From contig NC_134036.1 in NCBI RefSeq assembly GCF_964204645.1, positions 1,364,001-1,428,000 on the forward strand: a DNA stretch of 64,000 nucleotides, read 5' to 3'. The notes under the pieces are model-generated. The model did not search any database and was not told the DNA's origin. It worked only from the letters and a program-made list of their open reading frames with translations. Of the stretch, positions 15,601 to 18,600 are shown piece by piece. The position numbers and the translations under genes are program-made. The first letter of the stretch is position 1; each line of letters begins with the position of its first letter. Source of the stretch: Tubulanus polymorphus (Eukaryota; Nemertea; Palaeonemertea; Tubulaniformes; Tubulanidae).

Positions 15601-18600
15601 TGATACGCAAGATGATGAGGATCATCATTACGACATATCTTCTAAAGGCGCTACTATGATTTGTGACCTTTTGGGAGAGACCTTGATGAAGACCTCTGAT
15701 GAGTGGAAGAATATGAATGAAGAATTTCAGGTAGAATTGTAGGGAGGTTGGGATTGCTCGTCAGTAAGGTTTACATTTTGGATCTATTTTGTCTTTAGAG
15801 TGTTCTCAAGTTGAGACGAGGATTGAGCGACTGCGCTGAGAAAGTGGAGAATCTTGCAAAAAATAGGTTTCCAGACATATTGGCCTGTAAGTATTGCCTG
15901 GTCATTATATAGGTACCAACAATCATTGTGACACAAGCTTTTACACATTAACAGGAGTTAAAAGAATCTATCAATCTTTTTGTCATTTAAATGAACTGCT
16001 TTGTGATATATCTGTAATAGTTATGCTATAAAAGCCTATGCTCTGTGAATTCAGCACCACTACCATAAAAAGCGCTGGTGAACATTATTATTAGTGAAAC
16101 AGGCGTTATTGTGTAGATGTGACATTATCATTATTATTAGTTTATGTCATTCCATAGAGTTAAAGTAGTGTTGTTTTTTCTAGATGATTTGACTAGAGTT
16201 GTTTTGGAACAAACCAGTGAAGATCAAACATCAGATTACGTCAATGCCAATTACATTCGGGTGATAAATCAATCCTTCTGTCCTTGAAAAGTTTGTCACG
16301 TGCTTGTAATGTTGTAGTAGTTGATATGGATATTTCATTTTTAGGGATTAACTGGTCATGTAATATGCATTGCTTGCCAGGGTAAGTCTTGTTAACATTC
16401 CAATAATCTGTTCCGATGTTATTTTGGCGCTCATGTTAATTGGTATTTCATCTAACTTGCTCTTTCAGCTCCATTGCCATCTACAATCAATGACCATTGG
16501 CGGATGATTTGGCAAGAGAAATGTCCAGCTATTATTGTACTCACTGATCTGACTGAAGGACATGGCAAAGATAAGAAGGTGGCAAAAAACGTTTTCGAAA
16601 AAGGCTTTCAGATTCTGCTGATTAAACATGGAGAATTAGGAAAAATGCGTCTTTTCATATTCCAATTGCAGGTGAAGTGTCATTTATATTGGCCAACAAA
16701 ACTGGATGCAATAGGTCGATATGGAGATATAACAGTGACAGTTGCAGAGAAAATGGAAAAACACACTGAGCCTCCGGCAGTGGTTCATTTCCTATCGATT
16801 ACAAAGGTAATGATCATACTCTTGTTTTACCAGTGGTGTTATCTGTAATTGCAAACGACTTCATACCGGTAGACCCTTCATACGTGTAGACATCGATATG
16901 ACACCATTTTATGATGAGGTTTTGTTTCGATGTTACCTTGTCACAAGTATTATAAACGGTTTCTCTCGATGAGTAACGTTTCATTTATTTCATAGCGTGG
17001 CCTCAAACAAGCACATAATCTAATAGTGTTTCACTATCGAGGATGGCCGGATCATGGTGTACCGTTCCCGGCTTCATCTGTTGTTCGTATGCAACAGTTC
17101 ATCAAACAGCGTCTTACCGACCCGGATCAGGGACTTGTGCTGATTCATGGCAGGTAAATTCAATTCAAAATCTTCCAGTCCTTTACCGTTAAGGACAAGT
17201 TTAGAAATGTTATTGTTTGTGTTGTGTTCTCAGTGCTGGTGCTGGAAGGACAGGTTGTTATATCGCAACGGAGCAGCTTCTTGAAAAAGCTAAGAAAGAT
17301 GGACTCGTTAACGTATTCGACATGACTAGGAAATTACGACAACAAAGACCAGAAATGATCCAGAATATGGTAAAATCTTAATAAATTTACTGCCTCTCAT
17401 TTCACGTTTCCAAAATGGATAACTACAACGTGTTCCTTATTACTATCTACTTCAGAAACAGTACATTCTCGTGCACCAGATTCTACTGGAGGAACTGGTA
17501 CTGGGACCGGTGGCGTACCCGACCACGAGTTTCAGAGAATCATACGAGGAAAGAAAGGCAATGCGTCCTGTATCTAGAAACGTGTCTGATAAAATAGAGG
17601 AACAATTTCTTGTACGTATTAAGATCGGCCAAAATGAGATGAAGGGTTTTGGATAACAAACAGATGGCAGCAATGAATCCATTGACCCAGATAAACTAGA
17701 TTTCAATTTTTTTTTCCTTGGTTTGGTTTTGAAGAAAATAATTACCCAATGCGTTGTTTTCTGATGCAGGTTTTGAAGGCATCAACTCCGATTCAGGACG
17801 AGGAATCACTAGCAGTGGCCAAACTACTCAACAATGTTAGCAAGTCTCGATACAAAGACATCCTTCCCGAGGCACAGTATCAACCGCAACTCTCACATAA
17901 AGGGTTCATCAATGCTTCATTTGTGCACGTGAGTTTGATTCTGAATTAATAGCTATCCGTGGAATATCTGGTAGAGGGGGGGGGGGCATTAGGCCTCGAT
18001 AATCTTCAGTTGAGATATCGATAAGTTATAAGAATCTGATTGAAATACTTTCCTTTTTACAGACGATCACAGATAAAAACGTGTTTATAGCAACACAAAG
18101 TCCAATGGCAAATACTTTTACTGACTTCTGGCAAATGATCTTTGACTATAACTGTGAAATTATTGTAATGATGCATCAAGAATATCCACAAGATCCGGTA
18201 AGGTGTATTCCTAGTCTAGCATCTAGTATACATAGGTCTGCTTTGTAGGTATCTTTTTCCAGAATACATCTTATAATTTTAGACATATGCAAGCTACTGG
18301 CCTGCAGCTGGAAGCATCAAATGCAGTCCTTTTACAATCACTGTAGAGGAAGTTTCATTGCCCTGTAAGACCATCGTTCGCCGGGATTTGATCCTCCAAA
18401 AACAGAATGTATGTTGAGTTGTTTCGGTAGCTACTGTTCAGAGAAATATGGCTGCATTTTTCGGAATTTCCTTCGACATTGCTATTTACTATGACCTGAT
18501 CAGATCAATTGTATTTCTTTGATTTCACAGGAATCGCATCAGATTCGTCAGATCCAGTTTTTAGGATGGCCTGAGGATGAGTCGGTTCCTGATTTACAAC

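Follow-up and report, generated by a model that had tools for sequence, protein, structure and literature searches.

In protein tyrosine phosphatases (PTPs), catalysis runs through a cysteinyl-phosphate intermediate formed on a nucleophilic Cys. Among the 2-domain receptor PTPs, PTPRE and PTPRA have an active first domain (D1) with the His-Cys pair in place, and members of the R2B subfamily (PTPRK/M/T/U) have ectodomains with MAM and Ig domains. PTPRU is described as the one receptor PTP with 2 pseudophosphatase domains; although both are dead, it can still bind substrates of an active relative, and its D1 is reported not to bind phosphotyrosine (PMC7320164). In STYX, a signalling pseudophosphatase, the active-site Cys is replaced by Gly (PMC8269279). 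For F-type lectins, the published fucose motif is HX24RXDX4(R/K) (PMC5712786).

We analyzed a 64,000-nucleotide stretch of the Tubulanus polymorphus genome (C12:1364001-1428000, hereafter the window) within an examined genome of 267.8 Mb in 77 contigs. The exons identified here belong to a tandem array of type I 2-domain receptor tyrosine phosphatases, all on the forward strand. Gene 3 (36379..43976), our reference model, has 27 exons (x1-x13 and e1-e14) that give a single frame of 1343 residues from the ATG at 36379 to the stop at 43974-43976, with exon edges picked by eye at AG/GT sites preserving the frame. Its protein comprises, in order, a signal peptide, an F5/8-type C domain, an EGF-like cysteine-rich stretch, fn3 domains, a transmembrane helix, D1, and D2; the signal peptide, EGF-like stretch, and helix were assigned by eye and the F5/8-type C, fn3, and PTP domains by Pfam. 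Behind the single helix, which lies inside exon x11 (40265..40410), are 2 PF00102 domains, D1 (e1-e8, 41044..42570, E 5e-67) and D2 (e9-e14, 42729..43976, E 1.1e-52), the latter ending in the C-terminus DTYVNLS. The D1 match spans positions 1-234 of the 234-position profile at 226.4 bits, so its identity is not a matter of chance.

All 27 exons were also matched in gene 2 (22883..30583) and gene 4 (49844..57407). Gene 1 (6657..19029) has x1 at 6657, x2-x6 twice, and x7-x13 (with x12 a partial match), followed by the 8 exons of D1 and the 6 of D2. All 4 genes have open catalytic exons, and the joined ectodomain frame is open in genes 2 and 3, the 2 in which it was joined. The exon map further places the last exons of an upstream array copy, which starts outside the window, at 1..180 (part of e13, and e14) and the first exons (x1, x2) of the next copy at 63188..63630. 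The 2 sets of x2-x6 in gene 1 (6909-9477 and 10586-13102) form a tandem doubling about 3.66 kb apart, and the receptor would carry 2 F5/8-type C modules if both were used. Between the receptor genes, an ORF at 34131-34382 matches an immunoglobulin domain (Ig_3, 30.7 bits, cut-off 30), and the stretch around it recurs in other array units at 98-100% identity; it is perhaps a second gene of each array unit.

The catalytic signature HC(X)5R is absent from D1 in all 4 genes of the window. In gene 1, the first complete copy, the interval 16996..17369 corresponds exactly to exons e6 (16996..17153) and e7 (17234..17369) of the exon map. Exon e6 encodes the WPD loop and the first half of the P-loop and ends in His-Gly plus 2 bases of a Ser codon split by the intron: its 3' end reads CAT GGC AG, followed directly by GTAAAT, with the Gly codon at 17149-17151. 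Exon e7 begins TGCTGGTGCTGG and supplies the remaining P-loop (AGAGRTG) and the Q-loop (QQRPEMIQN). An earlier note on this DNA had described a P-loop with an intron-split Ser codon and Gly where active PTPs have Cys, and splicing e6 to e7 bears this out. The GGC codons that it placed at 17149, 28723, 42108, and 55514 (genes 1 to 4) were all recovered, each beside the same AG-GTAAAT junction, and the spliced D1 likewise keeps WPDHGVP and QQRPEMIQN, with KNRF as its phosphotyrosine (pTyr) loop. Its statement that every complete copy has Gly holds for the 4 of 4 catalytic D1 copies in the window; genome-wide, the count is 17 Gly versus 4 Cys among 21 close exon copies.

We scanned 3.2 kb around D1-D2 in all 11 array copies for 2 patterns that would give the Cys back, a His-Cys followed by 2 bases and a GT donor, and an acceptor of the type AG-TGY-(P-loop). 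The sole site of the first type was the D2 P-loop in 11/11 copies and no acceptor of the second type was found, so that, within this pattern scan, no other D1 junction supplies a Cys, as the note had also held. An assembly or splice artefact was rejected, given this negative scan and the presence of Gly in 17 copies on C12, C9, and C7.

The genome-wide counts come from a search with the e6 peptide, which gave 26 matches, of which 21 at ≥80% identity were taken as close copies and the residue was read from the DNA; HG(X)5R stands in place of the catalytic motif in 17 of the 21. All 11 copies of the array at C12:1320-1475 kb and all 3 of an inverted cluster at C12:1070-1118 kb have Gly, and the remaining Gly copies are single, on C9, at C12:2511 kb, and at C7:6505 kb. 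Three Cys copies form a sister cluster at C12:278-308 kb (copies at 278, 289, and 306 kb), 1.05 Mb from the family of the window, with e1-e13 open and bounded by AG/GT in 3/3 and with x2-x11 at 77-96% identity to gene 3. The fourth, at C10:9379 kb, is a pseudogene with a stop in e2 and frame breaks in D2. In more distant relatives the exon ends in VVHC in 3/3, and because of these relatives and the Cys-bearing sister cluster we take Cys to be the ancestral state. The simplest course is a single T-to-G change (TGC to GGC) that preceded the spread of the Gly subfamily into 17 copies; the Gly copies are then related duplicates and give no independent evidence of repeated loss. Depending on the tree, the C10 pseudogene falls next to the Cys cluster or within the Gly copies (supports about 0.8-0.87), a placement too weak to prove a single origin of Gly, and the Cys of this pseudogene may be ancestral or a reversion.

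Synonymous distances between the Gly copies and the Cys cluster were about 0.15-0.49 in e2, e4-e6, e8, e10, e12, and e13, reached 1.4 in e7, and were saturated in e1, e3, e9, and e11. Introns i11 and i12 are also alike between the 2 groups (identity 0.83-0.92 versus 0.64-0.72 when shuffled), with several other introns near the shuffled level, and exchange between the Gly and Cys groups around e12-e13 is likely. Elsewhere in the genome, an intronless 2-domain PTP frame of 837 codons (L001 1501-2196, C7:6352250-6352945) likewise carries Gly at the D1 Cys position (VHGGTGVSRSA), along with WPP for WPD, and is possibly an independent loss. A small P-loop survey identified HC at the 6 other loci where the residue after His is readable in 1 exon (L005, L006, L007, L046, L048, and L055); at most others the motif is divided between exons. 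On a 65 kb contig (L036, C57:24001-27000) lies a fragment of the array's receptor family (AGAGRTVC) with a broken frame, and no e6 was recognised in the 3 kb read.

Gene models were built for 16 Gly copies, and leaving out R1_1347 and R2_1114, as well as a partly read copy on C7, 14 had open joined catalytic exons (14/16 of those modelled). Of the 17 Gly copies, at least 3 appear to be broken: e3 was not recognised in R1_1347, e4 of R2_1114 carries an insertion, and e7 of the C7 copy is unlike the family. The insertion in R2_1114 (at 1114 kb in the cluster C12:1070-1118 kb) is about 2.7 kb long, splits e4, and has inverted ends like those of a DNA transposon. AG/GT sites flank the catalytic exons in 13 of the 14 open Gly copies and in all 3 cluster Cys copies, and R1_1448, counted as open, has no AG acceptor ahead of e11. 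In several Gly copies outside the window, the first ectodomain exons were not recognised within the 6.8 kb scanned.

Pairwise omega of D1 was 0.26 (bootstrap 0.19-0.36) across the 14 open Gly copies and 0.28 (0.18-0.46) in the Cys cluster, and D2 of the Gly copies gave 0.24. As the Cys pseudogene, serving as a control, also averages 0.29, pairwise omega alone is insufficient, being blind to recent relaxation, and private (recent) changes were therefore counted too, with the commonest codon of the other copies taken as ancestral, without a tree. Private changes in D1 of the Gly copies comprised 67 nonsynonymous (N) and 49 synonymous (S) changes (omega 0.54), below neutral at p = 0.00077, so that the Gly D1 is constrained; the Cys cluster had 30 N and 35 S (omega 0.33), and the Cys pseudogene 13 N and 5 S (18 changes, omega 1.06), not below neutral. 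In D2, private-change omega was 0.60 in the Gly copies (below neutral, p 0.0048) and 0.29 in the Cys copies. The higher values in Gly than in Cys copies for both domains are a hint of relaxation, with a contrast that is not significant (D1 p 0.16, D2 p 0.075), and neither is that between Gly D1 and the pseudogene with its 18 changes (p 0.31).

On one reading of these figures, which we consider distinctly improbable, the family is decaying, the Gly copies being relaxed duplicates whose conservation comes from recent duplication and inter-copy exchange and not from function. Decay would accommodate the broken Gly copies and the Cys pseudogene, the private-change omegas that exceed those of the Cys copies in both domains without differing significantly from them or from the pseudogene, the near-neutral changes in single copies (9N:2S on C9 and 10N:4S in R1_1325), and pairwise means that miss recent relaxation. 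Private changes below neutral in both D1 and D2, and catalytic exons that remain open in most of the modelled Gly copies, speak against it. The earlier note had held that the nucleophile was lost and the fold kept under selection across the family: the loss, the retained D1, and the purifying selection (omega 0.26 and 0.54) stand, the copies are not independent, and the pseudogene control weakens the case somewhat.

Across the 14 open Gly copies, the D1 P-loop reads HGSAGAGR in 13 and HGRAGAGR in 1 (R2_1079), and W-P-D, the P-loop Arg, and R-P-x-M-I-Q of the Q-loop are invariant in 14/14, as is the Asn after Met-Ile-Gln. For the pTyr loop, 13 copies have KNRF and 1 has KNSF; in the cluster Cys copies it is KNRF in 2 and KNRY in 1, and KNRF was therefore rejected as an element of the inactivation. 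A degenerate IATQGP motif (LALSAP in raw tblastn) was also rejected, the spliced reading being IACQAP.

In D2 of the same 14 copies, the P-loop is HCMDSTTR in 13 and HCMNSTTR in 1, the WPD-loop position is WPE in 13 and WSE in 1, and the pTyr loop is KSRY in 12 and KSRH in 2. With C(X)5R kept alongside KSRY and WPE, catalysis might have moved to D2, an idea that we regard as very unlikely: the D2 P-loop has STT and no GxG glycines, WPE is common in inactive D2 domains, an Asp-to-Glu change lowered turnover of PTPRK D1 about 115-fold (PMC7320164), and in the Gly copies constraint on D2 does not exceed that on D1. The cluster Cys copies have the same D2 P-loop, which is thus no compensation for the loss in D1. 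From its WPE and HCMDSTTR, D2 is probably inactive, like most D2 domains.

The ectodomain of gene 3 matched Pfam F5_F8_type_C (28.9 bits, cut-off 28.2) and F5_F8_type_C_2 (35.4 bits, cut-off 27.8), and its membrane-proximal fn3 domain matched Fn3_PTPRU. No MAM or Ig domain was identified by Pfam at E 0.01 in the 789-residue part N-terminal to D1, so that gene 3 does not have the ectodomain of the R2B subfamily. Exon x3 (37272..37496 in gene 3) encodes the first half of the F5/8-type C domain. The loops encoded there differ from copy to copy in both length and sequence, and x3 has the highest dN (0.200; omega 0.83, 0.58-1.18; 10 copies) of the 12 ectodomain and juxtamembrane exons tested; x6 (omega 1.03) and x12 (dN 0.182, omega 0.91) are loose too, with wide intervals. 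The published fucose motif, HX24RXDX4(R/K), was found in none of the 13 copies read, 4 further copies having no x3/x4 to read. The wider HX26RXD is present in 12 of the 13, the remaining copy having no RXD, and HX26RXDX4(R/K) matched none of the 13, the last basic residue being missing. Near the membrane, gene 3 has the tyrosine motifs YVNC and YFNI, which vary among copies, and the C-terminus is TYVNLS in 12 and TYMTLN in 2 of the 14 open Gly copies and TYANF in all 3 cluster Cys copies. We take YVNC, YFNI, TYVNLS, and TYANF to be of the pYxN type, a class bound by Grb2-like SH2 domains.

A pseudophosphatase domain is one that has lost the nucleophile Cys and is otherwise retained. The spliced models, the Pfam matches, and the PDB alignment, in which the best match is PTPRE D1-D2 and the query Gly faces the PTPRE Cys, all show this for the Gly D1, which is almost certainly a retained pseudophosphatase. 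By PTP chemistry it is catalytically dead, since no cysteinyl-phosphate can form without the Cys.

Judging from sequence, we favour a receptor that has no catalysis of its own and competes for phosphoproteins with its Cys paralogues, and put the chances of this at about even. A single base change would have turned the D1 nucleophile into Gly in 1 subfamily that then spread, and the receptor would act without catalysis: the D1 pocket (P-loop Arg, WPD Asp, KNRF, and Q-loop) would hold phosphotyrosine proteins, competing for them with Cys-bearing paralogues of similar ectodomain. That the pocket can still hold phosphotyrosine is plausible because the Arg, the WPD Asp, the aromatic pTyr-loop residue, and the Q-loop are kept, and because STYX also has Gly for Cys. 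The exclusion of phosphotyrosine by the dead D1 of PTPRU counts against assuming such binding, and the broken Gly copies, the missing e11 acceptor of R1_1448, HGRAGAGR in R2_1079, and the missing first ectodomain exons count against the favoured reading as a whole.

A somewhat unlikely but possible alternative is that the dead D1 binds no phosphotyrosine and the tandem-PTP module is kept to fold, dimerise, or dock partners, with signalling left to the ectodomain and tyrosine motifs. The active-site motif codons of the Gly copies show little more constraint than other D1 codons (pN/pS 0.23 versus 0.29), the C-terminal motif is kept in both groups, and PTPRU, with a D1 both dead and pTyr-excluding, still binds substrates (PMC7320164), all of which fit this alternative; the WPD Asp, the P-loop Arg, and most of the Q-loop, invariant in 14/14, are not obviously needed in a mere scaffold. 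Purifying selection fits maintenance of the fold or of a dimer equally well and does not single out phosphotyrosine binding. Of the earlier note's proposal of selection for phosphotyrosine binding or scaffolding, it is accordingly the selection that stands, and the role goes beyond what these numbers distinguish.

We tentatively raise a further, unlikely arrangement, a paired-receptor system in which enzymatic Cys receptors and trapping Gly receptors would share similar lectin-like ectodomains, with the variable F5/8-type C loops reading ligands. If true, the balance between a dead phosphotyrosine trap and an active phosphatase would tune the response, much like paired activating and inhibitory immune receptors.

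Compared with described systems, the array family resembles PTPRU as a 2-domain receptor PTP in which, to judge by its motifs, D1 and D2 would both be pseudophosphatases, and in its Fn3_PTPRU match. PTPRU, in contrast, is described as keeping the catalytic Cys and owing its inactivity to a rearranged structure; it has WPE, replaces KNRY by GSRQ, and carries a Thr in its PTP loop (PMC7320164), whereas the array family has lost the Cys itself, keeps WPD, has KNRF as its pTyr loop, and has an F5/8-type C domain and no MAM or Ig match in its ectodomain. The array family shares the D1-D2 organisation of PTPRE and PTPRA, and its DTYVNL aligns with SDYANF of PTPRA; the ectodomains of those 2 receptors are unlike its own. 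Pfam matches are shared with F-type lectins and F5/8-type C domains, but measured against the published fucose motif, the H-R-D spacing in the array copies is 2 residues wider and the last basic residue is gone (PMC5712786). With STYX it shares Gly at the active-site Cys position, although STYX is described as dual-specificity-type (PMC8269279) and the array D1 belongs to a transmembrane classical PTP (gene 3 D1 scores 17 bits for DSPc, below the cut-off of 33.5, and 226.4 bits for PF00102). Receptor PTPs with a dead D1 are already known, and so, separately, are pseudophosphatases with Gly for Cys. The literature matches listed were covered by title and start of abstract, and none of them concerned a tandem family of receptor PTPs whose D1 has Gly for Cys. 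Nor did we see among them the combination of such a dead D1 with an expanded array, a variable lectin-like ectodomain, and accompanying Cys paralogues. Here, the dead D1 of an expanded receptor family seems to have come about by a Cys-to-Gly change, and the same genome has Cys paralogues. Together, the Gly and Cys members offer a ready-made comparison for asking how a PTP pocket functions once its nucleophile is gone, in a receptor with a variable lectin-like ectodomain.
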